In this document: positions 1 through 54,300 of the stretch, one piece after another | Layout: every line of letters begins with the position of its first letter | Numbering within the stretch: the stretch's first letter is position 1 | NCBI RefSeq assembly: GCF_020921035.1 | Contig: NC_063151.1 | Coordinates: forward strand, 4,526,001-4,590,000 | DNA length: 64,000 nt | From: Rhodamnia argentea | Taxonomy: Eukaryota > Streptophyta > Magnoliopsida > Myrtales > Myrtaceae | Reading direction: 5' to 3' | The notes under the pieces: generated by a model | What the model was told of the DNA's origin: nothing | The model's input: only the letters and a program-made list of their open reading frames with translations | Database searches by the model: none | Made by a program: the position numbers and the translations under genes

Positions 1-356
1 ATTTAAAAAGGTTAGTTACTTTTTCCTTCTCCCAAAATTCTAAAATAAAATAAAATAAAAGATCGAGTAAAATAATAATGATAAGTTTTAAATCAACATT
101 CTCAGTATTTGTATGCCTGAAATGTTTTTAGGTCACATAAAAGTCATGTTTCAAACATTACGAAAAGATATAAAGCCTTGATAGTTTTTGCCGTCATTGT
201 TCTCCAAATTTCTTGAGCGGGCAAAGTTCAAAGGCAGCATTATAATCCCATCTCCTTTGGCTATGGTGTATCAGTGAACTTATTAAAAAAAAACAAAAGC
301 TGTTAATAGGATAGTTTAATAGTATTATCGGTTATTTCTGACCGTACGATCCCCCA
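1..356. other. AT-rich flank, no gene seen
   Basis: AT-rich sequence with simple AAAAT-type runs and no convincing reading frame, splice site pair or repeat. It is the left flank of the CACTA element; its last three bases (CCA, 354-356) are the left copy of that element's target duplication. Confidence 0.6.
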
Positions 357-369
357 CACTATAAAAAAA

Positions 370-1800
370 CATGGATTTTGCCACGAAAAATTTGCGACGA
401 AAAAAATTCATTGCTAATTTCCAACGAAAATAGCAACAAAATGAAGATTCGTCGCTATTTGCGACGAAATTAGCGACGAAAAAACTTGTTGCTCATTAGC
501 CACGAATTTAGCGACAAAAAATAATTCGTCGCTAATTTGCGATGAAAATGCCCACGAAAAATATTTCGTCGCACATTAGCGACGAAATTAGCCACGAAAA
601 ATATTTCGTCGCTAATTAGCGACGAAATTAGCCATAAAAATATTTCGTCGCTAATTAGAGACGAAAATGGCCATGAAAGATTATTCGTCGCTATGTCCTT
701 TGCGACGAAAATGGGCTTTGTCGCCAATTAGCCACGAACTTCTTTTTTCGTCGCAAATTCTTTTCTTAAAAGTTAGCAACGAAAATCAGCATTTGTCGCT
801 AATTAGCGACGAAAATAAACATTCGTAACTAATTAGCGACGAACTTTTAGTTTCGTTGCAAAATTAGTATTATGAATAAAAATAACAAAGAAATTATTAA
901 AATTAACGACGAATCATTATTTCATCGCTAATTTAGCGACGAAATGTATTATTCGTCGCTAATATAATGTCAATAAAAATAAAAAAGAAAATATTCAATT
1001 TAGCGACGAATTAGCTTTTTCGTCGCCACGGTAGTGACAAATTTGTTTTTCGTCGCTAATACGATATAAGTAAAAATAAAAATAAAAAAATAATCAGCGA
1101 CGAGCAATGTTTTTCGTCGCTAATTAGCGACGAAAACAAATTTTGTCGGAAATTTGTTACTATCATTTAGCGACGAAAACCTATTTCGTCACTAATTAGC
1201 CGCGAACCATGTTTTTCGTCGCAAATTCTCTTCTTAAAACTTAGCGACGAAAATTTCCATCTGTCGCTAATTAGCGACGAACGTTGATTTCGTCGCAAAA
1301 TTAGCACTATGAATAAAAATTAGAAAGAAAATAGTAAAATTAGTGACGAATCACATTTTTTGTCGCTAATTTTATAGAAATATAAATAAAATATAAAATA
1401 TTCAATTTAGCGACAAATTAGCTTTGTCGTTGCTAATTTAGCGACGAAATTCATTTTTCGTCGCTAACATGCTATAAATAAAAATAAAACTAAAAAATAA
1501 AATATTAAAATTAGGGACGAATTATATTTTTCATCGCTAATTTAGCGACGAAAAACTTTTTTCGTCGCAAAAATAGCACTATGAATAAAAATAAAAAATA
1601 AAATATTTCAATTTGGCGACGAACTAGTTTTTTCGTCGCTAATTTAGCGACCAAATGTATTATTCGTCGCTAATATGATATAAATAAAAATAAAAAAGGA
1701 AATATTAATATTAGCGACGAATTTGTTTTTCCGTCGCTGATTTAGCGACGAATTTCCTTTTTCGTCGCTAAATCAGCCACGAATTAGCTTTTTCGTCGCT
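370..1800. repeat. Left subterminal repeat array of the CACTA element
   Basis: Dozens of copies of TTAGCGACGAA and its reverse complement TTCGTCGCTAA, often back to back so that the pair forms a perfect palindrome, separated by AT-rich spacers such as AAATAAAAATAAAAAA. Variants with GCCACGAA also occur. In CACTA elements such motifs serve as binding sites for the element's own DNA-binding protein; that role is inferred here. Confidence 0.9.
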
Positions 1801-1829
1801 AAAAAAAATGAAAAAAGAAGGAAAAAAAA

Positions 1830-2043
1830 AATCCCCACGAGAGCCTCCAAGGGAAGCGGCGTACCCTCTCACAATTCAAAAAGCTGATTTCGCCTTCTCG
1901 TCTTCCCCAAGAGAGAGAGAGAGAGAGCTTCTCTTTCTTCCTCCCACCTTCCAAACTCAACTCAAGGTTTCTCTCACCTTATAATCTTATATACATTCCC
2001 GTCTCCATTCATCAACCTCACTCTCTCTCTCTCTGCGACTTTA
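1830..2043 (+). promoter_or_regulatory. Captured UPM1 5' UTR and possible core promoter
   Basis: Between the repeat array and the UPM1 start codon the base composition changes abruptly to pyrimidine-rich sequence with GA and CT runs, typical of a plant 5' UTR, and includes a TATA-like ATAATCTTATATAC at about 1981-1994. It looks like the native leader of UPM1 carried along with exon 1. If active, it would drive transcription through all four captured fragments. The TATA call is weak. Confidence 0.35.
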
Positions 2044-3088
2044 ATGGCTCTCGTCAACAGGCTCGCTTCGTCCGTGTCACCTCGTCTTCGACCGAGCTCC
2101 TCCCCTGCTCAGCCTTGAATCTGCTCCCTCCACTACACCCCCTCCTCCCCTCCTCCTCCTCCTCCTCCTCCTCCTCCTTCTTCTTCTTCGCCGTTCACCG
2201 AGAAACACTCGCCAGAGAGGTACCGCAGCGACGGGTGGCTCTACAGCGACTCCCTCTGCCAGACTCCTCTCTCCCCCCCCTCCTCCTCCTCCTCCGGCTC
2301 CGATCCCGACTCCCTCAGGCGGGACGACTTCGCCCTCCAGCTGCCAGAGCTGAAGAACCTGCTCCGGGTGCTCAAGGACAAGAGGGAGCGCTCCTGCGGC
2401 TGCGGCGGCGAGAAATGCGGGCCCGGGAACGTCTACTTGGTGGGGACGGGGCCGGGCAATCCCGAGTTGTTGACTCTGAAGGCGGTCAGGGTCATCAAGG
2501 GCGCCAATTTGTTGCTCTACGACCGGCTGGTGTCGAACGACGTGCTGGACTTGGTTGGCCCCGACGTGAGGGTACTCTACGTGGGGAAGACTGCCGGGTA
2601 CCATAGCCGCACTCAGGTAAATTAATTTACCGTTCTCGTCGCTCTACTTCTGTGTTCTATCGGGTTTTGAGGAATTAGGCTGGTGTTTTTGCTTTGATTA
2701 GTGTCATTTGGAAGTGAGTTATTATGGTGGTTGCTGGCATTATTTTTTTTCCACCACGTGTTTGAGTTTTGGTGAATGTATTGTTGGGTTGTGAAAGGTG
2801 GTGTGATCTTTTCGGTACTTGTGTGGGCAGGACGAGATCCATGAGTTGCTTCTCAATTTTGCGGAGGCGGGGGCTACTATTGTTAGACTCAAAGGTGGTG
2901 ATCCTCTGGTGAGTAAATTTCAGATTTAACATTTTATTAATCTGCAATTCTTCTAATGTCGACTTGGAATGCCCTTTCGTTCCTGTTTATATGTGGATTT
3001 TGAACATGGTTTCTGTAGGTATTTGGGAGAGGTGGGGAGGAGATGGACTTTCTGCAACAACAAGGCATTCAAGTACAAGTTATACCAT
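2044..3088 (+). pseudogene. UPM1: UPM1 fragment (uroporphyrinogen-III C-methyltransferase, first three exons), captured and broken
   Basis: UPM1 is the plastid SAM-dependent methyltransferase that makes precorrin-2 for siroheme. Exon 1 (2044-2616) encodes a transit-peptide-like start (MALVNRLASSVSPRL), a Pro/Ser run from a CCT repeat, then FTEKHSPERYRSDGWLY, LRRDDFALQLPEL and the SAM-site motif GNVYLVGTGPGNPELLTLKA. Exon 2 (2831-2908) gives DEIHELLLNFAEAGATIVRL and GGDPL; exon 3 (3019-3088) gives VFGRGGEEMDFLQQQGIQVQ then VIP. GT/AG sites are intact. Codon 25 is TGA (2116-2118), so the frame closes inside the transit peptide. Everything after VIP, about half the enzyme including the rest of the catalytic domain, is missing. 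The last exon base is T where I expect G. It is a non-functional transposon-borne copy. Confidence 0.9.
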
Positions 3089-3492
3089 GTAAAGATGAGC
3101 TTCAATCACATGCGTACTCATCTTAAACAGGAAAGGAATTTGCTGGCCGTGACTTTAGAGCTGCAACTTAACTTCCATTTGATCCTAATTTGTAATTGTA
3201 CTGATGATAAGAGGTTACATACACATGTGAGAAAATATTGCATCAATCTTGGGTTGGTTTCTTGCCAAATGCTTGTGATTTTGGGGGTCTTGTATACTCT
3301 GTTTCAATTCTGGAGGCTGCCTAATGGTGTTAATTTAATGTGATTCTAGGTCCTTTAGGCTTGATTTCATCGTTCCTTTACTCATTCGTGATTAAGGGTT
3401 GACATGTGGCCAATTCCATAGACTTCTTATCAAGATTCAAGAATACATTGGTTCATATTTTTCATTGTTCATTTGTTGGACATTCTTTGTAG

Positions 3493-3746
3493 TTCTTCCC
3501 CACTGCTGAGGAGTCTATTGACTACTACAACCAGAACAGATGTGTAGATGGAAAAAGGGCTTGTCTTGCCAAGTTAGATAGTGAGTTGCTTTATGAATAA
3601 CAATTAGTGATACACTTTGGTTTAATGTCCTCAACCTTTTTCGTTATGTTTGATAACATCATCGTATTTTCTTTCCAGAGATATGTCAAGTACTTTGAAC
3701 GTGTTTTGACATACTTCAATGGAGAAAACCAGCATGGGCGAAGGTA
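3493..3746 (+). pseudogene. PTEN2: PTEN2-like phosphatase fragment (two exons), captured and frameshifted
   Basis: The family is the plant PTEN2 dual-specificity/lipid phosphatase. Exon 3493-3580 reads FFPTAEESIDYYNQNRCVDG and is followed by GT at 3581. The second part starts at 3679 after CAG and reads RYVKYFERVLTYFNGENQHG then RR, matching the end of the phosphatase domain and the start of the C2 region of plant PTEN2. In the first exon one extra A in an A-run (about 3550-3555) shifts the frame away from the expected GLVLPSQI, and in the original frame the expected CAG (Q) is TAG. The catalytic HCxxGxxR loop is not present. The segment ends abruptly inside an exon at about 3746, where CSN7 sequence begins without an intron. 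Confidence 0.85.
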
Positions 3747-4137
3747 TGTTGTAAATGTGCGAGAACTTGAAGATTTTCTTATCAACAAGTGCATGTATGC
3801 GGTAAGTTCTCCATCGACTTCGTCAAATATATCCTTGCATCACCATGATTTAGATCTTGCTGTTTGAACTTTGGCTTTCCTTGTCATTGAGATATTTCTC
3901 TTGCTAAAAAAGTAAAAATAATACGAATCTGCAAATCCTCATGTTCAGTTGAGCATCTACTTTCTGAATGGCAGCTGTCTTTCCTTTGGATAGAAGAGAA
4001 GTGAAAATATTACAGAAGTTGCAAACTTCTTGTTGCATAATGAACAATTGAGGCACAATGAATGTGCTTATATTTGTTATTTGTCTTTTCAGGGTATAGT
4101 TAGAGGAAAGCTTGATCAATTGACAAGATGCTTCGAG
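3747..4137 (+). pseudogene. CSN7: CSN7 fragment (COP9 signalosome subunit 7, PCI-domain region), captured
   Basis: CSN7 (FUS5 in Arabidopsis) is a PCI-domain subunit of the COP9 signalosome, which removes NEDD8/RUB from cullins. The sequence reads VNVRELEDFLINKCMYA up to 3801, then a GT donor at 3802. It resumes at 4093 after CAG with GIVRGKLDQLTRCFE to 4137, again followed by GT. These are two consecutive pieces of the conserved CSN7 PCI/winged-helix region, and the junction between them is a proper intron. The native protein has E where this copy has K (FLINKCMYA). The 5' side is fused in the same exon and frame to the PTEN2 fragment. No downstream CSN7 exon is visible. Too little remains to assemble into a complex. 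Confidence 0.87.
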
Positions 4138-4529
4138 GTATGAAATTCTTACAATTGTGGAATTTGTTTTTCTCCTTAATCTTACTGATGGAAATTTAAG
4201 GTGATCAACTGTTTACCAGGGGAGGTAAAAACTTGGATCCTCTTCTTCTTGATTATTACTCCATGTTCAAAATTTTGATATGATTCCATGCACTAATTCA
4301 TGATGCGTACAGTTTGAATGCCATATTGGTATGTTAAAAACAAAAATTACATGTAATTGGCTTAGAAATTGCGAAAGTTAGTTGTGAGACCAGTTTTAGT
4401 CTATTTCCTGAGTTGACCCACATTGTGCTCATATTCAGTACAGTTACAATAAGAGAATAGTTATCATTTTTGCTGCAGTCCTTTTATGTGACATGGAGTT
4501 TTGCTGGCAATATTCGTGTGTGGATGCAG

Positions 4530-4753
4530 AGCTGATAAATATTGGGCAGAAGCGAGGTGCTCTGCAAGAACTTCACGATCTTGTTACCTCGAAGAGATCC
4601 TGAGCATGGCAAACTACCCTTGAGAGGATTATGTTTAAGTACATTGAGCTATGTGTTGATATGCGGAGGGGGAGATTTGCCAAGGATGGTCTGATTCAGT
4701 ATGGCATTGTATGTCAACAAGTGAATATCACCTCTATGGAGGAGCTACTGTAA
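4530..4753 (+). pseudogene. eIF3a fragment (translation initiation factor 3 subunit a, N-terminal exon), captured
   Basis: After an AG acceptor at 4528-4529 the frame reads ELINIGQKRGALQELHDLVT, SKRS, a TGA stop (about 4600), then [40 protein letters not shown] and NITSMEELL, ending at TAA (4751-4753). This matches the N-terminal part of plant eIF3a, the large PCI-domain scaffold of eIF3. The internal TGA sits where the family has an Arg codon, as expected from a CGA to TGA change at a methylated CpG. The rest of the roughly 900-residue protein is absent. It lies on the same strand as the other captured pieces. Confidence 0.87.
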
Positions 4754-4825
4754 TACGAGGAACTAATTATGTGCAAATTCCCTAAAGAAAAATATTTATG
4801 TCATTCTTGTGAAAAATGTAGATGA

Positions 4826-4875
4826 ATGTATCTCATTTTCACCTTACCAAAAAAAAAAAATGTATCTCATTTTCA
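4826..4875. repeat. 16-bp direct repeats around a poly(A) stub
   Basis: ATGTATCTCATTTTCA occurs at 4826-4841 and again at 4860-4875. Between them is CCTTACC followed by a run of A. The layout (target duplication, short unique piece, A-tail, duplication) is what a very short 5'-truncated SINE or LINE insertion would leave. The repeats are seen; the origin is inferred. Confidence 0.5.
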
Positions 4876-4984
4876 TATTATTATAAAATTTTGATATTAT
4901 TAAGTGCTTAATCAATGTTAAATATAAATTGTAGAAATTAATTTTGCTTTTAATTAAATTTAAGATCGAAAAGTAAAAGAAATG

Positions 4985-5845
4985 ATTTTATCATGAAAAA
5001 AATAAAATTTCGTCGCTAAATTCGTCCCTAAACTATATTCATCGGAGAGTTCGTCGCTAAAGAATTAATAAAAATTTGTCACTAATTTTGTCGCTAAATT
5101 ATTTTAAATTTCATCACTAAATACTTTTCATGGCTATTTTCGTTGCAAATGACAATGCTAAACTTTCAAATTCGTAATCGGCAATGACTTTTGCCACGAA
5201 TTCGGGGAAATTAGCGACTAATTTTGCCACGAATATGTTCATGGAAAATTAGCAACGAATAATATTTTTGTGGCTAAATTTGATTCGTGCTAATTAGCGA
5301 CGGAAAAATTTTCGTCCAAAAGTAAATCAAATTTAGCGACGAAATCACAAGTTCGTCGCTAATTTTGCCACGAAAAATTTGGAAAAATTCGTCGCTAATT
5401 GGGTTTTATGACTAATTTTGCCACGAAAAAAATTCATGGCTAATCTGGCGTCACAAAATTTAGGGACGAAACATTATTTTTTCGTCGCTAAATTTTGCGA
5501 CGAATATAAAATTCGTCACTAAATTCATCACTAAATTTAGCGACGACATTTTATTTTTGTGGCTAATTAGCGACGAATAAGTTTCGTCGCTAATTTGCCA
5601 CGTAAAGTAATTGGTCGCAAAATTCGTGGCTAATTTGTGACAAAACTTATTCGTCGCTAATTAGCCACGGATAAGTAGTCGTCGCAAAATTCGTCGCTAA
5701 TTAGCGACGAACTTTAGTTTTTCGTGGCTAAATTTTGTGACGCCGAATTGGCGACGAATATTTTTCCGTCGCTAATTTTCGTCACAAAGCAATTTAGCGA
5801 CGAATTTTGGTCAATTTTTCGTGGCAAAATCCGTGGCTAAATCCT
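4985..5845. repeat. Right subterminal repeat array of the CACTA element
   Basis: Same motif as in the left array (TTCGTCGCTAA / TTAGCGACGAA and GCCACGAA variants), in both orientations, up to the right terminus. The array is shorter and denser in the GCCACG variant than the left one. Confidence 0.88.
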
Positions 5846-5900
5846 TATTTTTTTGTAGTGCCAATTAATAAGTGTTTTATGTAAAATATATGGTGATGGT

Positions 5901-8900
5901 TGTTGACACCTGATTTTTAATCAATCTTTTTTTCGATTTATTTTTGAAAATTCATAAAAAATTCACAAAAAATTAGAAAATTGTAAAATCAACTTTGGTA
6001 GCCTTGGCCAAGCTCAAGGAACCATTTTTGATCAAAAAATAATTTTTCATATTTTTCGCATTTTTTGATATTTTTCAGAAAATAAGAAAATACCCCAAAA
6101 ATCAAGAAAAATACTATTCGAGGTCACAAAAATACAGAAAAATAGTCAGTATTTTTCTTTTAATTTCCTTTTCATTTTGACCTCTTAAAATTTGAAAATT
6201 CCATTTCGGATTTGTGTGTTCCTTCACAAATGCACCCTCGAATTAGACATGAAAATACCATTTGGGGTCATTTTATTTTTCTTTTTTCACTTTTGAGGGT
6301 TGTGACATGTTTCTCTAGCATTACATTTCACATTCTGATCCAATTACATGTTAATTTGCTCAATTTTGGCACTAGGGACTTAATTGCACAAAAATTCCTT
6401 TCATTTTAGTCCCTACCATGCCAAATCCGAAATTAAATCTTCCTAAGAGACACCCATGGAACCCCATGACCCTTATCCTATAATTTTCCACCTCCTGAAT
6501 CTAATGACGGGCTCAATTGATGCTAATTCCTTCATTAAGGACTCCAATTTTGTGAAAATCAATTTCGGATCTTACCCAATATTTGGGGTTTTCTCTCAAT
6601 TCCAAAGGAATTTTTTACGAAAATCACATCTTTAGAGGTAATCCATGATGGGAAATCAATTTTTGGCATCAATTTTATGAAAAAATGTTAATTGTTAGCT
6701 CAATTTGGCCATTTATTGCACGAATCGGGTCAGCCGGGTCGGGCGGATCCGATCCGGTGACCCGGCACTATTCATCGTCTCTCCCAAAGCTCCACAGGCG
6801 CAGGTTAGAGAGAAGACGGCCGTTTTTCGAACGGTTTTCAGCAACGAAGCTTCGGGAAGCTTCTGGAAGGCCTGGCAGTTAGAGGAGCACGGGAAAGAGG
6901 AACAAAAGGAAAGAGAGTGCTCGCAAACAAAAGGGGAGGAGATTCGAGAAAAAAAAAAAAGGAAAAAAGGAGAACACAAGAGAGAAAGAGGGAGAGGGAG
7001 AGAACGAGAAAGGAGGATCTTCAACAAACGAGCGGGGGGGGCTCGCTAGAAGTGCTCGTCCGCCATTGAAGCCCGGGCAGCCGAAAAGCTTCAAGCTCGG
7101 TTCCCGATCGGCGCAGGCGACGCCACGCCGCAGCACCAGCGTCGTTGGCCTCGTCTCACTCCTACGAACGCGTCGGATACTCTCGCAATCGTCGACGCTC
7201 CCGAAACAGGTGAGTATCGTCGCCGCACCCTATCCCGGGTTTCAATGGCAACTCTTCAATCCGATCATTTTTCTTCAATTTTTCTGGTTGATTCGAGTCT
7301 TTAGCAAGCCCTAAGCTCGCATCCATGTCTTTTTTGCATGGAATCTACTCGAAACCTCACGATTGAACCACGAGAATCCGTGACCTCTCATGAACTCGTA
7401 AGCTTGACGAATGCGAAACCGATCCTCGATGATGAACAGGTAAGCTTCTTCGACTTATATTGATGTTATTTGATCAACCGTTTTGAGGTTTAAACGTTGA
7501 ATATGCGAGATTGAGCTTGCCGCCGGAAATGTGACTGTGGAGGTCTGTTTAGTTTAGTTCTAAGTGGGTTAGGCCTCCGAATCTCATGTATGTTGATCGG
7601 GATTTGCGAGGATTCAGATTCGTGCAAAAATGGTGAGAAAACGAAGTGTTTTCACGTCGGAATAAAGCTTCCGACGAGGCGCCGGCGAGATCGCCGGCGC
7701 CGATCGTCTTCCCCGATCGGACGTTGACCGGTCAACTCGAGTTGACTCGGTCAAGTCTACGTGGCGATGACGTGGCGGCCACGTGGCGGCCACGTCGGCG
7801 CGGTTTGTTATAACCGAATAACGGAAAAAAAAAAAAACAACCTTGATCCGACGGCCCAAAATAGGCCACGTGTCGAGATCTCGGATTTTTTGAAAATAAA
7901 AATCATTTTTTAAAAATATTCCATTTTTGAAAAATAAAAAAAAAATGTTTTGTGATCGGGTGGCCCAGGTTTGGCCACGCGTCACGTTTCCGATCGTAGG
8001 ATCAAAAAATTCTTTTTTTTAAAAAATAAATAAATAAATCAATTTTCGAATAAAAAATAATACTCTTGATCGACGGTCGTGGACTAGCCACGTTGTCAAA
8101 TCCCCACCGCAGATCTGATCGAAGGATCAAACGGCCGTGGATTAGCCACGTGTCTTTATCCCGACCGTAGATTCGATCTCTCGATCAAAGAGCCATAATT
8201 TCGCCACGTGGCGAACCCCGAGCCATCGATCTTAATGTCCGATCTGAGCGTCCGGAGAGCGCCACGTGGCGTAATCCGAGACACATATTTTTTTAGGCGG
8301 GAATTTCCAAAATTTCGAGCGCGAACGTTAGACGACGCCGTTTTTGGAGGGGTCCCGGTCCGGGCGTGTGTTCGGACCGGGCTGATCGGTCCGTGGACCG
8401 GGCTGACCCGGTCCGTTGACCGGGTTGACTCGGTCCGATAAATAATAAAAAATAATAAAAAATCGAAAAAAATGATTTTTAAAATCCAAAAAAATTGGAA
8501 AAATCATAGAAAATCCAAAAAAATTAGGAAAATTTGTAGAAAATTCCCAAAAATTCCAAAAATTCTCAAAAATTGAGGAATGGCCACAATCAACTGGCCA
8601 ATCCTATTTTTGAGATTTCTTTTCCCCATCTTTCCAAAAATGACAATTTTACCCTTTAGGGGTAATTTGTCTCCAAAAATTCTCGCGGACTTCCAAAAAA
8701 TGTTGGAAATTAGGAAATGGGTCGGTTTAGGTGGCCAATCCTATTTTCAACATTTCTCATTCCGAATCTCTTCCGAAATGACGATTTTGCCCTTTTTGGC
8801 AAATCGTCCCCAAATTTTCTCAAAATTACGATTTTGCCCCTCATGGGCGAATCGCTTCCAAATCACTCCCGATCCCCTCCTATGCTTTGGATGTCCCTTC

Positions 8901-9430
8901 TCTAAGCCAATAGGGCTATACTAGGAATGCCACGCTGATTTGATGCGATTTATCCGCATGTTATGGATTCCTTGATTTGCGCATTTACTTTAACTCGGTT
9001 GTGATTGCTAGGATAGTTACTCTCATCCGCATGAACTCCTAGATTAGGATTCGTACCCCCACTCCTGCATGAAATCCAAGATTAGAAAATTCAATCAACT
9101 TAGGTACCGAAAGGGCGTCAACTACGATAGTTGGCGTAACTAAGTCCCCGAACCCACTTCTGCGGTTCTCGCAGAATCGAATAGAAACTCCCGACTATTC
9201 GATAGGGTTTCCAATCGTACCTTCCACGAAACGATTGGTGGCGACTCCTTGGCATGCACACGTAGCACATGCCACTAGACCGCACCGAAGGTCGATCACG
9301 TTATCCTCCGTTGCGATTTGGGTAATGGGCCTTGGGAGGGGCCCGCGTCCGAAGGTCCACACGCAATCGGGCCGGAAGGGCGACCCATTAACCCTCTTCC
9401 TCGCTTCTCCGATCGAGGAGGGTCGCGGCT
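5901..9430 (+). repeat. 5' LTR
   Basis: Begins TGTTGACACCTGA and matches 19999-23529 along its whole length apart from scattered substitutions and 1-3 base indels. It contains a GA-rich stretch (about 6880-7020) and a GC-rich part with repeated CCACGTGGC-like motifs (7760-8270). A run of ATAAATAATAAAAAATAAT (about 8438) follows. The final bases are GGCT where the right copy has GACA, so the canonical CA end appears altered here. Confidence 0.92.
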
Positions 9431-10360: not shown

Positions 10361-11194
10361 TCCCAAAGTTAACTCTTGAAGACCAGAACCGGGGGCGTCT
10401 CTAAGTGTTTAGGATCACATTCCTTTGATTTGTTTTACGTTCCTAGTTCGCTTGTATAGGATTTATTTTTCCGAGATCCCTTTCATCTCATCCTTTAGAC
10501 CGATTGTATTAGGGATCTATTTTGGTTGTACTCATTTAGTTGGAATTTTGTTGTATTTCTTTTGATTTATCATTGGAATGTGACAATGGCATTTCTTTCA
10601 ATTATTCGAACATTTCCAATCAATTATATAATTCCCTTTGGAGGAAATTGGAATTAGAACCCTTGTTTGACCTTTTGGTTATATAGAGGAGTCTAATCCC
10701 AATTTCGCCAGAATGAACTATAAAATTGAATTGGTTCATGCATGTTGCATATCATTTTCATTATTTGTAATTCACGATAATTGACCAAGATTTTTCGTGT
10801 TTTTCAAATTTAATGAAAGATAGATATTCAAATTACTCTCGTTCTTAGCAAACGGCTTTAATTTGGATACCATATCTTCAATTGAATTTAAAACACATTA
10901 AAATTGTGTTTTACACTTTTTGAACATTCCATTGATTTTTTCTTGGAATTGATCAAAAGCAATTATCGTGGATTACACTCTTTTCAATGGTATGCTTTCC
11001 TTGAAAAATATTGATAAGAGCTTTTCACACGAGGCTAAAGCTCATGTAAAGATTCTTATCTTTATTAATCGCGAGCAAGCATAAAATTGAAAAGATTTAC
11101 GCTTTCTTTTTTCATTTTTCTCTTCTCATATCGCCTTTTTCATTTGAAACAGGTGATAAAAACTGGTGGTGGAAACATCCATTCGTGGATAGAC

Positions 11195-12472
11195 ATGGAG
11201 GATAATGACACCAACGCACGACCGACTAAGTTGGAGAGTCAAGTGGCCCAGATTGTTGCCATGCTTTCGAAACTCTCGAAGGAAGATAGTCCTTTCACTC
11301 CATTGTCTACTATGGAGAGCCCTATTATCACACCCACCAGATTGTCCGTTATCGATACTAATAAGGAGGATGTGGCTGAAGAAATCCTTTTGATCCCGCG
11401 CTCTAGTGTGAGAAAGGAATCTAGTTGCTTGATGGAGGGAAAAGACCCTACAAACTCGATCGGAACTGGAATTCATCCAGATATTCCTCAAAAGGATAAC
11501 ACATTGTCTCCTCGTTCGAAAGAGAAAACTTCTGAAATTTTTCAAAGGCCAGAATTCATCAAGAAGTATGATGGCATTGGATGTCCGCAAACTCATATCA
11601 ATTACTTTTTGGGAGAGATGACTGATTATGTTTATGATGATGCACTCCTCATTCAGAATTTTCAGTATAGCTTGATTGGTCCCGCTTTATCTTGGTTTAT
11701 GTTACTTGACACTGGGAGTATCCAAGAATGGGAAGATCTCACCGACCGGTTTCTGCAACAATATAGATACAACATGAAGGCTAGGCCTACCAGAATGAAT
11801 CTGAATGATATGAACATGAGAAGAAATGAGACTTTTAGAGAATTCGCACTGAGGTGGAGAGCGAAAGCTGCTCAAGTTCAACCCGCATTGAACGAGGATG
11901 AGTTGATGGGATACTTTTCGAAAGCTCTTCCGTACAAGTTCTTTGATCGATTGTATACATCTCGTTGTCAATCATTCTCGCATCCGGTAGACGTTGGTGA
12001 AAAGGTAGAATGGGCCATGCGGAATGACAGGTGCAGAAATAAGCAAGGTTATAGAGGATACTCTCAAGCAAATGAAGGATCGACTAACAAGATGAAGATC
12101 ATATATCCAGGAAAGGCAACCATAACTGAAACTTCTGAACCAAACAGATCCTTTAAAAAGGCATCAAAATCTGTTGAGCATAAGAAAAAGCCACCCCCAA
12201 AGCAATTCACTCCACTTCCATGTTCACTCTCGGAGCTTTTACCCGTACTTCTTGAGAAACGAATGGTTGCCATGGTGCCATCAAGGTATAATCCTCCTAA
12301 ATTTGTTGGATATAATGAAGCCAAATCATGCATCTACCATATGGGAGAAAAAGGACACAGCGTTAATAATTGTCGGGCTCTCCAACACAAAGTTCAAGCC
12401 CTTATAGACAGTGAGATGTTGAAGTTTGATGAGGTGAGGCCAAGCGTGCGGGAGAACTTCTTATTTGATTAG
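11195..12472 (+). CDS. Retrotransposon gag polyprotein (Tat/Ogre-like capsid)
   Basis: The 425-residue product forms the virus-like particle of the element. It starts MEDNDTNARPTKLESQVAQI. The Retrotrans_gag-type core runs from FIKKYDGIGCPQTHINYFLG through ALSWFMLLDTGSIQEWEDLT to FREFALRWRAKAAQVQPALN. Near the C terminus CIYHMGEKGHSVNNC has the spacing C-x2-H-x5-H-x4-C, the modified zinc knuckle I associate with Tat/Ogre gag, followed by KVQALID. The frame is open upstream to an ATG at 11087, but those 36 extra residues come from a pyrimidine-rich stretch ending in CAG (11150-11152) that looks like a 3' splice site, so I chose the ATG at 11195. The gene ends at TAG with no continuation into pol in any frame. 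The intact frame suggests recent selection or recent insertion. Confidence 0.88.
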   Translation: MEDNDTNARPTKLESQVAQIVAMLSKLSKEDSPFTPLSTMESPIITPTRLSVIDTNKEDVAEEILLIPRSSVRKESSCLMEGKDPTNSIGTGIHPDIPQKDNTLSPRSKEKTSEIFQRPEFIKKYDGIGCPQTHINYFLGEMTDYVYDDALLIQNFQYSLIGPALSWFMLLDTGSIQEWEDLTDRFLQQYRYNMKARPTRMNLNDMNMRRNETFREFALRWRAKAAQVQPALNEDELMGYFSKALPYKFFDRLYTSRCQSFSHPVDVGEKVEWAMRNDRCRNKQGYRGYSQANEGSTNKMKIIYPGKATITETSEPNRSFKKASKSVEHKKKPPPKQFTPLPCSLSELLPVLLEKRMVAMVPSRYNPPKFVGYNEAKSCIYHMGEKGHSVNNCRALQHKVQALIDSEMLKFDEVRPSVRENFLFD

Positions 12473-19985: not shown

Positions 19986-19998
19986 AAAGAGGGGCAGT
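19986..19998 (+). other. Polypurine tract
   Basis: AAAGAGGGGCAGT immediately precedes the right LTR. A purine-rich tract here primes plus-strand DNA synthesis in LTR elements. Confidence 0.75.
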
Positions 19999-22900
19999 TG
20001 TTGACACCCGATTTTTAATCAATCTTTTTTTCGATTTATTTTTGAAAATTCATAAAAAATTCACAAAAAATTAGAAAATTGTAAAATCAACTTTGGTAGC
20101 CTTGGCCAAGCTCAAGGAACCATTTTTGATCAAAAAATAATTTTTCATATTTTTCGCATTTTTTGATATTTTTCAGAAAATAAGAAAATACCCCAAAAAT
20201 CAAGAAAAATACTATTCGAGGTCACAAAAATACAGAAAAATAGTCAGTATTTTTCTTTTAATTTCCTTTTCATTTTGACCTCTTAAAATTTGAAAATTCC
20301 ATTTCGGATTTGTGTGTTCCTTCACAAATGCACCCTCGAATTAGACATGAAAATACCATTTGGGGTCATTTTATTTTTCTTTTTCACTTTTGAGGGTTGT
20401 GACATGTTTCTCTAGCATTACATTTCACATTCTGATCCAATTACATGTTAATTTGCTCAATTTTGGCACTAGGGACTTAATTGCACAAAAATTCCTTTCA
20501 TTTTAGTCCCTACCATGCCAAATCCGAAATTAAATCTTCCTAAGAGACACCCATGGAACCCCATGACCCTTATCCTATAATTTTCCACCTCCTGAATCTA
20601 ATGACGGGCTCAATTGATGCTAATTCCTTCATTAAGGACTCCAATTTTGTGAAAATCAATTTCGGATCTTACCCAATATTTGGGGTTTTCTCTCAATTCC
20701 AAAGGAATTTTTTACGAAAATCACATCTTTAGAGGTAATCCATGATGGGAAATCAATTTTTGGCATCAATTTTATGAAAAAATGTTAATTGTTAGCTCAA
20801 TTTGGCCATTTATTGCACGAACCGGGTCGGCCGGGTCGGGCGGATCCGACTCCCAGTGACCCGGCACTATTCATCGTCTCTCCCAAAGCTCCACGGGCGC
20901 AGGTTAGAGAGAAGACGGCCGTTTTCGAACGGTTTTCAGCAACGAAGCTTCGGGAAGCTTCGGAAGGCCTGGCGAGTTAGAGGAGCACGGGAAAGAGGAA
21001 CAAAAGGAAAGAGAGTGCTCGCAAACAAAAGGGGAGGAGATTCGAGAGAAAAAAAAAAGGAAAAAAGGAGAACACAAGAGAGAAAGAGGGAGAGGGAGAG
21101 AACGAGAAAGGAGGATCTTCAACAAACGAGCAGGGGGGGCTCGCTAGAAGTGCTCGTCCGCCATTGAAGCCCGGGCAGCCGAAAAGCTTCAAGCTCGGTT
21201 CCCCGATCAGCGCAGCGACGCCACGCCGCAGACACCAGCGTCGTTGGCCTCGTCTCACTCCTACGAACGCGTCGGATACTCTCGCAATCGTCGACGCTCC
21301 CGAAACAGGTGAGTATCGTCGCCGCACCCTATCCCGGGTTTCAATGGCAACTCTTCAATCCGATCATTTTTCTTCAATTTTTCTGGTTGATTCGAGTCTT
21401 TAGCAAGCCCTAAGCTCGCATCCATGTCTTTTTTGCATGGAATCTACTCGAAACCTCACGATTGAACCACGAGAATCCGTGACCTCTCATGAACTCGTAA
21501 GCTTGACGAATGCGAAACCGATCCTCGATGATGAACAGGTAAGCTTCTTCGACTTATATTGATGTTATTTGATCAACCGTTTTGAGGTTTAAACGTTGAA
21601 TATGCGAGATTGAGCTTGCCGCCGGAAATGTGACTGTGGAGGTCTGTTTAGTTTAGTTCTAAGTGGGTTAGGCCTCCGAATCTCATGTATGTTGATCGGG
21701 ATTTGCGAGGATTCGATTCGTGCAAAAATGGTGAGAAAACAGAAGTGTTTTCACGTCGGAATAAAGCTTCCGACGAGGCGCCGGCGAGATCGCCGGCGCC
21801 GATCGTCTTCCCCGATCGGACGTTGACCGGTCAACTCGAGTTGACTCGGTCAAGTCTACGTGGCGATGACGTGGCAGCCACGTGGCGGCCACGTCGGCGC
21901 GGTTTGTTATAACCGAATAACGGAAAAAAAAAAAACAACCTTGATCCGACGGCCCAAAATAGGCCACGTGTCGAGATCTCGGATTTTTTGAAAATAAAAA
22001 TCATTTTTTAAAAATATTCCATTTTTGAAAAATAAAAAAAAAATGTTTTGTGATCGGGTGGCCCGGGTTTGGCCACGCGTCACGTTTCCGATCGTAGGAT
22101 CAAAAAATCTTTTTTTTTTAAAAAATAAATAAATAAATCAATTTTCGAATAAAAAATAATACTCTTGATCGACGGTCGTGGACTAGCCACGTTGTCAAAT
22201 CCCCACCGCAGATCCGATCGAAGGATCAAACGGCCGTGGATTAGCCACGTGTCTTTATCCCGACCGTAGATTCGATCTCCGATCAAAGAGCCATAATTTC
22301 GCCACGTGGCGAACCCCGAGCCATCGATCTTAATGTCCGATCTGAGCGTCCGGAGAGCGCCACGTGGCGTAATCTGAGACACATATTTTTTTAGGCGGGA
22401 ATTTCCAAAATTTCGAGCGCGAACGTTAGACGACGCCGTTTTTGGAGGGGTCCCGGTCCGGGCGTGTGTTCGGACCGGGCTGATCGGTCCGTGGACCGGG
22501 CTGACCCGGTCCGTTGACCGGGTTGACTCGGTCCGATAAATAATAAAAAATAATAAAAAATCGAAAAAAATGATTTTTAAAATCCAAAAAAATTGGAAAA
22601 ATCATAGAAAATCCAAAAAAAATTAGGAAAATTTGTAGAAAATTCCCAAAAATTCCAAAAATTCTCAAAAATTGAGGAATGGCCACAATCAACTGGCCAA
22701 TCCTATTTTTGAGATTTCTTTCCCCATCTTTCCAAAAATGACAATTTTACCCTTTAGGGGTAATTTGTCTCCAAAAATTCCTGCGGACTTCCAAAAAATG
22801 TTGGAAATTAGGAAATGGGTCGGTTTAGGTGGCCAATCCTATTTTCAACATTTCTCATTCCGAATCTCTTCCGAAATGACGATTTTGCCCTTTTTGGCAA

Positions 22901-23529
22901 ATCGTCCCCAAATTTTCTCAAAATTACGATTTTGCCCCTCATGGGCGAATCGCTTCCAAATCACTCCCGATCCCCTCCTATGCTTTGGATGTCCCTTCTC
23001 TAAGCCAATAGGGCTATACTAGGAATGCCACGCTGATTTGATGCGATTTATCCGCATGTTATGGATTCCTTGATTTGCGCATTTACTTTAACTGGTTGTG
23101 ATTGCTAGGATAGTTACTCTCATCCGCATGAACTCCTAGATTAGGATTCGTACCCCCACTCGTCTGCATGAAATCCAAGATTAGAAAATTCAATCAACTT
23201 AGGTACCGAAAGGGCGTCAACTCTGATAGTTGGCGTAACTAAGTCCCCGAACCCACTTCTCTGGTTCTCGCAGAATCGAATAGAAACTCCCGACTATTCG
23301 ATAGGGTTTCCAATCGTACCTTCCACGAAACGATTGGTGGCGACTCCTTGGCATGCACACGTAGCACATGCCACTAGACCGCACCGAAGGTCGATCACGT
23401 TATCCTCCGTTGCGATTTGGGTAATGGGCCTTGGGAGGGGCCCGCGTCCGAAGGTCCACACGCAACCGGGCCGGAAGGGCGACCCATTAACCCTCTTCCT
23501 CGCTTCTCCGATCGAGGAGGGTCGCGACA
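19999..23529 (+). repeat. 3' LTR
   Basis: Begins TGTTGACACCCGA and ends GCGACA, followed by the ATGGT target duplication at 23530-23534. Near-identical to the left LTR, with scattered differences such as a missing T in CTTTTTTCAC and several 1-base changes. Confidence 0.93.
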
Positions 23530-51303: not shown

Positions 51304-54300
51304 ATGTGTTGTTCATCACAGCTCAAGGTCACAACCTTCTTCTTCTTCGTTGTTCTTCCACTTCTTTTGAGTCCTGCGAGTGCCCAGGTCCGTGCTAACG
51401 AAGAAGGCTTCATTTCTATACTCGTGTCCGACAAGGGTCTTGATTTTGCTAAAGACTTGCTCGTGCACAGAGCGGTGTACTCGATCATCCCGCTTCAGCT
51501 GCCACAAATTGAGAAATATCTGAAAATCCCAGTTGTGGGCAGCGTTCATGTTGTTCTTTCGAACATCAGTGTCGATGGGGTTGAGGTAGATTATTCATAT
51601 GTCAAGACTGGTGAGGAGGGTATTGTGCTAATAGCTTCTGGGGCTACTGCGAATTTGAGCATGAATTGGCAGTATTCTTATAGTACGTGGCTGGTCCCTT
51701 TACCGATATCTGATGAAGGTAGTGCTTCTGTGCAGGTACCGTGAAGATCTCTTATTGAATATGTTCTCACGATTTTCTTGTTGAATTAGTGAAGTATGAG
51801 CTTGAAGTTTATTGGTTCTAGTATGTCTTCTTAGAGAAGTAGCTGGTTAAATAGTAACAGTTTTGACAGTCTAACGCGAGTATTTGCTTATTGAGAAGAA
51901 AGTTTTCACTTTGAACTTAATCTGATTCCAAAGCATGGGTTGATCTAGGTGCGGTTGCTTTTCCAACATAGTTGTCAAAAGGAAACCTGGCATTGTGAAT
52001 ATATGCGATTGAGTCGGTGATAGCTGCTTGGATGATGGGTGAGCTAAGCTTTTATATGGCAGGAAGTGCTGATGTTCATCTGGAACTTTGATGATTCTAT
52101 GTGGTTAGGACTAACTGATGCTTACTGAGTTTCTTCAGTTCTCCTTCAATTTTCCTGCTCTCTCTTTCCTAATCTCTTTGAAAGCTTGTCGAAAAGATGT
52201 CATTACACTTCTGTGTCTTTTATCTCATAAAAGTTTAAAAGATTTGTCAATCTTGTGAAAGGAGATGATATTGCTACTCCTATGAGCGTGATGCTTCATT
52301 CTCATTAGTACACTCAGTCATTTGCAGCACAACTTTTAAAGTTTCATGTTATTGTTTCTCTGATTCTTAGGCATTTTTTTTATCACGCATATGCTGTAAA
52401 CAGTGTAAAGAATAGTGTTGAGAAGTGCTGCAAATGACAGATTGAAGATATGGAAGTGGGACTTACCTTGGACTTGAAGGATCTAGGTGGTTTTCTTAAG
52501 CTATCTGTCCCTGAATGTGGATGCTATGTGAAAGCCATCTCGATCAAAATTGATGGTGGCTCATCTTGGCTATATCAAGGGTACGCAATCGTGTTGAATT
52601 AGTGTTTTTTCTCTGAATTTTCAATATCTTATAATCTATCCACTATTACTGGGGTCACTAACTGATCTTTTTGAGTTTCTCATGGAAAAGTTTTAGTGTG
52701 TGTCTCCCATTGATTTCTCTCCCGGTAGAACAAGTACATAGTTGACATATCATGAATACTTAAGCGTGGTGGTAAATGAACTGAAAGTTGTCAAAAGCAT
52801 CGGTTAATGACTATAGAGACACCCACACGTACTTATATTTTGCTGAAAAGGTTGGGTTTCTCCAAGTCAGTCCTGTTTTGCAGTAATTTGGCAGATGATT
52901 GAACAGTTATTTGCCTTTGCCAACACTCTGAATTTTTTGATTACATATCTAGAGATATACTACTGCTTCTGTAAATTACCTGTAAAAGCTTTGCTTTGGC
53001 ATTGCTTTGATGCCTCTCATAAGGGCCATGGACCTGCCCTTTTTCTGGTTGCTGCACGAAACCTGCTACTTACAGTGTTTGCTTCGCTTCTCTAATCTCA
53101 GGGTAGTGGGTGCTTTCCAAGGGAAAATAGTGTCGGCAGTCGAGGAAGCTATTCCCAGGAAGATTAGAGAAGAAATACTGAAGCTAGATGCCTTACTGCA
53201 AGATCTTCCAAACAAAATTCCAGTTGGCAATGTTGCTTCTCTGAATGTTACTGTCGTGAGCGATCCACTGTTGAGTAATTCTTCCATTGACTTCGAGATC
53301 AATGGGCTATTCACAGCAGAAGACAAGATCATTGCATCCAACTATCCTCACAGACAACAAACCACTTCAGTTACCTGCACTGGTGCCAATGAAATGATTG
53401 AGATTTCCTTACATGAAAATGTACTTAAATCAGCATCTTTTGTCTACTTCAATGTAAGTTCTTGTTCTGTTTCCTGTTTTTCCAGTAATGAAACTGATTA
53501 AAAGCTTTGATGTGGTTGTCTTTGTATGTTTAGGCTTTTATGAAAGGCTGATCGGTGCCGTCGGCTTACCGGATATTGTTTTCTTTATTTTATTTTATTT
53601 TGTTTTGGTCAGGTAGATTATATGCACTGGCTTGTGGACAAGACACCAGATCAAGCCCTACTGAACACGGCTGGATGGAAATACATTGTGCCTCAATTGT
53701 ACAAGCAGTATCCAGATGACGACATGGACCTCAACATATCCGTATCTTCTCCACCTCTTATAAAAGTTACTAAACAGGGAATTGGTGCTACCATCTACAC
53801 AGATGTTATAGTTGATGTTCTGGATGCCGGTGAAGTCATACCAGTTGCCTGCATTTCACTGGTGTGTTTGTTCTACAACTCTTGAGATCTGTAACAATCT
53901 TGCGTCGATTTGTCCCGGTGGTTGTGCTTATATGGACTTTGCTATTATTTAGCTAAAGTCCATCTCCCTTTTTCTAAGTTATGAAACACCTAAAGTAAAC
54001 TGGTGCTAGAGATTAAGCTTGTATAGGGTATGAAAGAAGAAGAGCTTGTAAGATGCTAACAGCCGTCATCCCACTGACCTGAATTAGACGCTGGCTATAA
54101 TTCAAAATCCTGGTTATTATAAAACCCAGAAATTGATAAGCTTCTGATTTATTTTGGAGGAATTGACCTTTTCTGTCACTCTTTCTCTCCCTTTCTTTTT
54201 GGCTCAAGTGGTTTGTTGGAAATGATAGACATTTTGTAATAATGATGATAGAAACGTTCCTGTTGCATCAGGTGATAGATTCTTCAGGTTCGGCGCATAT

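Follow-up and report, generated by a model that had tools for sequence, protein, structure and literature searches.

A CACTA element of Rhodamnia argentea with pieces of four host genes, and its partial relatives

Introduction

CACTA transposons with host gene DNA are known from several plants. Reported cases are Tgm-Express1 of soybean, a CACTA element 5.7 kb long in which five unrelated host genes are represented by exons and introns (PMC1947982), Pack-CACTA elements of maize with several donor loci (PMC8903248), and host gene fragments in CACTA elements of Chenopodium and grapevine (PMC8978399, PMC2528002), those of Chenopodium sitting in the 5' region (PMC8978399). How DNA transposons acquire several genes is still debated. 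The model preferred by Gisby and Catoni is the joint mobilisation of two neighbouring insertions after the loss of their inner ends (PMC8903248, section 9), and another study names abortive gap repair, i.e., the repair of an excision gap that jumps to other loci (PMC8978399). Here, we analyse a CACTA element in a stretch of 64,000 nucleotides of Rhodamnia argentea (contig NC_063151.1, positions 4,526,001 to 4,590,000), hereafter called the window. The element carries pieces of four host genes: UPM1, PTEN2, CSN7 and eIF3a. An initial annotation, made from the window alone, had regarded four donors as an unusually rich case; this did not hold, since the soybean element is described as having five (PMC1947982). 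Four donors in one CACTA element are not new, and the unusual part is the set of partial relatives that accompanies the element. Our explanation of the whole, in which we have good confidence, is a Pack-CACTA that gathered gene blocks in separate steps and moves in trans. In a genome that holds partial relatives, source genes and transposase suppliers, one can measure the order of capture, block sizes and repair signatures, and tandem fusion can be tested directly against gap repair.

Results

A non-autonomous CACTA element

The stretch from 357 to 5860 of the window is a CACTA element. Its left end is CACTATAAAAAAAC at 357 and its right end is ...TTTTTTTGTAGTG, finishing at 5860; read inwards, they are CACTATAAAAAAACATGGATTT and CACTACAAAAAAATAAGGATTT, respectively. 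CCA stands on both sides of the element (354-356 and 5861-5863), and the termini and duplication were thus as first annotated. The subterminal motif TTAGCGACGAA, allowing at most one mismatch, has 77 matches in the window, and these occur only at 391-1802 and 5009-5804. In the shuffle control the mean was 0.78 matches per window, and 77 was reached in none of 100 shuffles. No inner CACTA end or motif was found between 1803 and 5008 of the window. The ends are kept in other copies of the element: all nine elements with both ends identified have a matching 3-bp target duplication, the sequence of which differs between places.

None of the 112 transposase matches (PF02992) listed for the genome lies in the element. 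The exact 29-base end has 110 matches genome-wide (0 for the reversed control), and this end lies on the same strand no more than 8 kb upstream of 11 of the 68 transposase loci compared (in 1000 random draws, the mean was 0.06 and the highest value 2), in a comparison that covered 100 of the 110 end matches and 68 of the 112 PF02992 rows, with the extent of one contig roughly guessed and one transposase row near an end on the opposite strand excluded from the 11. One of these loci, L049, for which no right end was located, carries a 601-aa frame where PF02992 matches, with a motif array on either side. The element is a non-autonomous Pack-CACTA and, since it has no PF02992 match and the genome has transposase loci with the same end, it is very probably mobilised in trans by autonomous CACTA elements sharing its ends. 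It has the CACTA terminal inverted repeats and the 3-bp target duplication of such elements, no transposase of its own, host coding DNA with a source elsewhere, and an autonomous element sharing its ends.

Captured pieces and their donors

The four gene pieces are all on the forward strand and contain introns (Table 1). UPM1 and eIF3a were identified with Pfam (PF00590, E = 1.8e-12, and PF22591, E = 1.2e-11), and CSN7 by its match to a chain of COP9 signalosome subunit 7 in PDB (E = 7.4e-16), which we take to be that of Arabidopsis. The 52-aa PTEN2 peptide had no match in PDB and the PTEN2 exons no usable match in Pfam; this piece was identified through the matching host gene, which encodes PTEN2_C2 (E = 2.7e-33 and 4e-15). 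The exons named in the initial annotation were confirmed by these matches. A fifth captured piece, X, resembles a repeat family of contig C9. Pfam gave no match for X (L038), nor for two stretches of the relatives described below, block V (L020) and the middle of C8b (L013).

All 12 splice dinucleotides read by eye are kept. UPM1 has an in-frame stop at 2116-2118, in exon 1, whereas the donor's exon 1 is open; PTEN2 carries an additional base relative to the host gene; and eIF3a has a stop at 4601-4603. No captured piece is an intact coding unit. Given the shared orientation of the four pieces and the conserved splice dinucleotides, the element might give rise to a spliced chimeric RNA. None of the pieces is likely to yield a normal protein, because stops and frame shifts disrupt UPM1, PTEN2 and eIF3a. 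The open frames 2115-2606 and 2969-3343 were rejected as frames of captured genes.

A genome search with the interior of the element gave a separate host match for each gene: UPM1 at C1:3.82 Mb, PTEN2 at C5:18.62 Mb, CSN7 at C9:10.35 Mb (donor span C9:10353457-10356074), and eIF3a at C1:32.20 Mb. Donors were hence found for all four pieces, and the four segments were found contiguous nowhere outside a CACTA element. No CACTA end, and none of the motif forms looked for, was detected in the 3.3 to 10 kb examined around each donor. The CSN7 locus is present in two inverted copies, at C9:10.35 Mb and C9:12.13 Mb (L031/L034 and L030/L035), 99.8% identical over 5.6 kb, which may be either a recent duplication or an assembly artefact.

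Relatives with the same cargo

We counted 14 cargo-sharing elements, named after their contigs: C2 (the window element), C7a, C7b, C8a, C3a, C3b, C6a, C8b, C6big, C5a, C3c, C3d, C4a and C7c. The count leaves out L047, L049, and also C5b and C5c, which have the right end and half of a block Y, with no eIF3a match. It is a minimum, 40 of the 677 candidates from a first look at the family having been scored. For the comparisons of elements, BLAST rows were selected on their length, overlap, strand or target.

Three full copies, on two contigs, have all four genes: the window element, C7a (C7:22.48 Mb) and C7b (C7:19.42 Mb). Their cargo is 97.9-98.1% alike, and the UPM1 pieces of C7a and C7b have the same exon-1 stop and frame shifts as the window copy. 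Since the three copies lie at different places and have different target duplications (AAA in C7a and TTG in C7b vs. CCA in the window), the finished chimera appears to have moved as one unit.

The other eleven elements carry subsets or trimmed versions of this cargo, so that sister elements with fewer pieces do exist. C8a has UPM1, X, CSN7 and eIF3a, and lost most of PTEN2 through an internal deletion. C3a and C3b have X, PTEN2, CSN7 and eIF3a, with a block V where UPM1 would be; they are probably a single duplicated insertion, since their right flanks are identical. C6a and C8b contain UPM1 fragments, the 5' side of PTEN2 (positions 3234-6670 of the locus, in three stretches), a short end of CSN7, and eIF3a. 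The middle of C8b is largely PTEN2 5' side by comparison with the PTEN2 locus, and the junction between the left array and UPM1 is identical in C6a and C2. C6big combines UPM1 and part of the PTEN2 5' side with an insertion judged by eye to be Copia-like and a right part resembling L047 with a decayed inner left end. In C5a, the tail of PTEN2, CSN7 and eIF3a adjoin a Copia element identified with Pfam. C3c retains unbroken CSN7 DNA over about 1 kb, together with eIF3a and, ahead of the right end, the extra stretch Y. C3d likewise carries eIF3a and Y, C4a holds eIF3a preceded by a 0.5-kb stretch, and C7c is a decayed relative of C3a/C3b (about 72%).

Two further observations concern these relatives. 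Block V (L020:377-1300, in C3a) is a mosaic: it matches several contigs, and four of its matches have a listed transposase match at a distance of 3 to 8 kb. The absence of PTEN2 in L012 was considered as a stage preceding capture and rejected, as the alignment shows an internal deletion instead.

Nested content and proposed stepwise capture

Among the 14 elements, UPM1 is carried by 7, PTEN2 by 11, CSN7 by 11 and eIF3a by 13, where PTEN2 is scored as present in C5a from about 22 bp of junction sequence and in C8a from a 66-bp remnant, and where C5a, C3c, C3d, C4a and C7c, whose left ends lie outside the compared DNA, are scored on the lack of a nearby UPM1 match in the genome search. Every one of the seven elements with UPM1 also has PTEN2; of the 11 with PTEN2, 10 also have CSN7; and the 11 with CSN7 all have eIF3a. 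Except in C6big, the content is therefore nested in physical order, starting at the right end. The partial relatives support the earlier proposal that the pieces were acquired in separate events.

This pattern suggests that the interior was built up from intron-containing host gene DNA, acquired one step at a time from different chromosomal locations. From right to left, the order of gain that we infer would be eIF3a, CSN7, PTEN2, X and UPM1, each new block landing beside the left subterminal array and cutting back the left margin of the earlier cargo; the completed chimera would then transpose as a unit. X starts at donor position 1288-1291 in C3a/C3b and at 1501 behind UPM1, as if the arrival of UPM1 had trimmed its left side. 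The PTEN2 parts of different elements jointly span about 5 kb of the gene, with about 3.4 kb of its 5' side in C6a and C8b, and CSN7 lacks about 1.9 kb of the donor locus in most copies. Because C3c keeps CSN7 DNA lost elsewhere and the PTEN2 parts are jointly so long, the best reading is that the captured blocks were originally kilobase-sized and were shortened later by deletions. Divergence from the donors, in numbers that are small and under a constraint that differs by gene, fits weakly with eIF3a as the first arrival: the non-exon differences are 8/68 for eIF3a, 26/327 for CSN7, 9/151 for PTEN2 and 35/572 for UPM1, and the exon differences 14/219, 2/101, 2/159 and 13/704, respectively.

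Capture mechanism

Capture took place at the DNA level, because the pieces retain introns. The initial annotation stands in this respect, with copying of the pieces, as against cutting them out, a possible route. The data fit two reactions, the fusion of neighbouring insertions that lose their inner ends and copying during gap repair. In the latter, repair proceeding from the right side after excision would have switched to other genes where short stretches match, with the product then joined to the left array. The junctions agree with this, with 6 bp of shared sequence between PTEN2 and CSN7, 3 bp between CSN7 and eIF3a (both read by eye), and a 28-bp filler, as do the donors, which are still in place, and the lack of any inner end or motif found between the arrays. 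Three shared bases were seen at deletion junctions too (CSN7 inner, loss of Y). Fusion, however, is favoured in PMC8903248 (section 9), blocks of several kilobases fit it as well, and second left ends do occur within relatives, one in the composite L047 and a decayed one in C6big. Gap repair is thus a serious candidate that we judge to fall somewhat short of probable.

The composite L047:6125-8935 (C11:14.37 Mb) has an exon of DUF868 (PF05910, E = 1.8e-14), a second left end inside, and outer ends that share the duplication TTC. It looks like a fused tandem pair from a sister Pack-CACTA subfamily. The five recognisable gene pieces (UPM1, PTEN2, CSN7, eIF3a and the DUF868 of L047) are all oriented from the left to the right end, and are too few to speak of a bias.

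Gain, loss and other alternatives

Several observations count against the order of gain proposed above, starting with the weak fit of the donor divergence. A tree of eIF3a and the right end (12 rows, with 4 of the 9 inner branches well supported) places six UPM1 carriers and C5a in one group (98/97) and leaves C3a/C3b outside it. C5a, where no UPM1 was found, is thus nested inside the UPM1 carriers, and C3c joins C3a/C3b (85/85) despite keeping CSN7 DNA that those lost; recombination between elements would explain both placements. C6a and C8b group among elements with the shared X/PTEN2 junction, and their PTEN2 part is missing from the C2 and C3 elements, which would call for an ancestor with more PTEN2 DNA, for PTEN2 having been captured twice, or for recombination between elements. 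C6big has UPM1 and PTEN2 without CSN7 or eIF3a, and its UPM1 looks old, being more diverged from the donor (77-85%) than the other UPM1 copies. Comparison of the left arrays gave no order, since they are repetitive and C7a lacks the inner part. Finally, related copies are not independent, as the probable duplication behind C3a/C3b illustrates. With these points included, stepwise growth at the left edge is our best reading of the sequences, and a shade more probable than improbable. A general rule would be that CACTA elements can grow one way, each new gene at the left edge truncating the previous one, so that cargo order is a record of time and the edge of the left array the site of capture; because of the conflicts in the tree we regard this rule as rather doubtful.

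The main rival to stepwise growth is a single large ancestral composite that held all the cargo, from which deletions alone, with loss from the left, would have produced the present variety. Deletions did occur: C8a lost most of PTEN2, about 1.9 kb of CSN7 is gone in most copies, and UPM1 is shortened in C6a and C8b. Yet, deletions alone do not readily account for the nesting in physical order (10/11, 11/11 and 7/7 carriers), for the V that C3a/C3b have in place of UPM1 together with a longer X, for C5b and C5c, with half of Y and without eIF3a, or, as a weak point, for eIF3a being the most diverged from its donor. We consider this rival unlikely. Both gain and loss of cargo certainly occurred; a longer ancestor must have undergone some deletion, so that the two readings differ in degree.

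Helitrons have no target duplication and no inverted ends, and Pack-MULEs have Mutator ends and a target duplication of about 9 bp. Although both likewise carry host gene pieces (both are named in PMC1947982), the CACTA inverted ends with 3-bp duplications in nine out of nine elements rule out either identity and the retained introns rule out the capture of processed transcripts, which leaves a negligible probability for a retroposed chimera or a member of either class.

Features of the window

The features of the element are listed in Table 1. Beyond its right target duplication, after 36 bases, begins what is by its sequence a young LTR (long terminal repeat) retrotransposon with very long LTRs: two 3.5-kb direct repeats (5899-9427 and 19997-23526), 98.9% identical, lie around a gag frame (PF03732) at 11087-12469. 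Further away, frames at 51304-53501 resemble a host gene of the LBP/BPI type, the first of them with PF01273 (E = 1.2e-07).

Table 1. Positions in the window of the CACTA element's features
Feature	Positions	Strand	Evidence
Left target duplication CCA	354-356		Read in window
Left CACTA end and subterminal repeat array	357-1802	+	Same end in sister elements
UPM1: about 240 bp 5' of ATG, exons 1-3 and introns, stopping within intron 3	1801-3106	+	Unbroken match to C1:3822056-3823315
28-bp filler between UPM1 and X	3107-3134		
Fifth piece X	3135-3312	+	80-82% to five places at C9:26.2-27.1 Mb
Unassigned stretch of about 127 bp between X and PTEN2	3313-3439		Occurs also in C3a
PTEN2: two exons and introns	3440-3751	+	Match to C5:18622300-18622609
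CSN7 part 1: two exons and the intervening intron	3746-4181	+	Match to C9:10353457-10353885; overlaps PTEN2 by 6 bp
CSN7 part 2, about 1.9 kb further along the same locus	4178-4454	+	Match to C9:10355796-10356074
eIF3a: intron and most of an exon	4458-4744	+	Match to C1:32201978-32202268
Inner right part of element	4744-5008	+	Common to related elements
Right subterminal array and right CACTA end	5009-5860	+	Motif and end read in window
Right target duplication CCA	5861-5863		Read in window

Comparison with known elements

We found no CACTA case with a comparable nested series of partial relatives in the open-licence PMC literature; one may exist all the same. The published cases are compared here as far as the available texts describe them. 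Like Tgm-Express1, the window element is a CACTA element with exons and introns of several unrelated host genes. Tgm-Express1 is one element, located in a pigment gene and transcribed, whereas here the cargo is spread, in different subsets, over at least 14 elements known from their sequence. The cases of Chenopodium and grapevine have one captured gene each, in elements with transposase sequence, whereas the window element has several genes and no PF02992 match. The Pack-CACTA and Pack-TYPE elements of PMC8903248 are similar in being non-autonomous, with CACTA ends and coding DNA from multiple loci, multiplied as a unit; unlike them, one chimera can here be traced through nested partial forms, and its growth was apparently one-sided.

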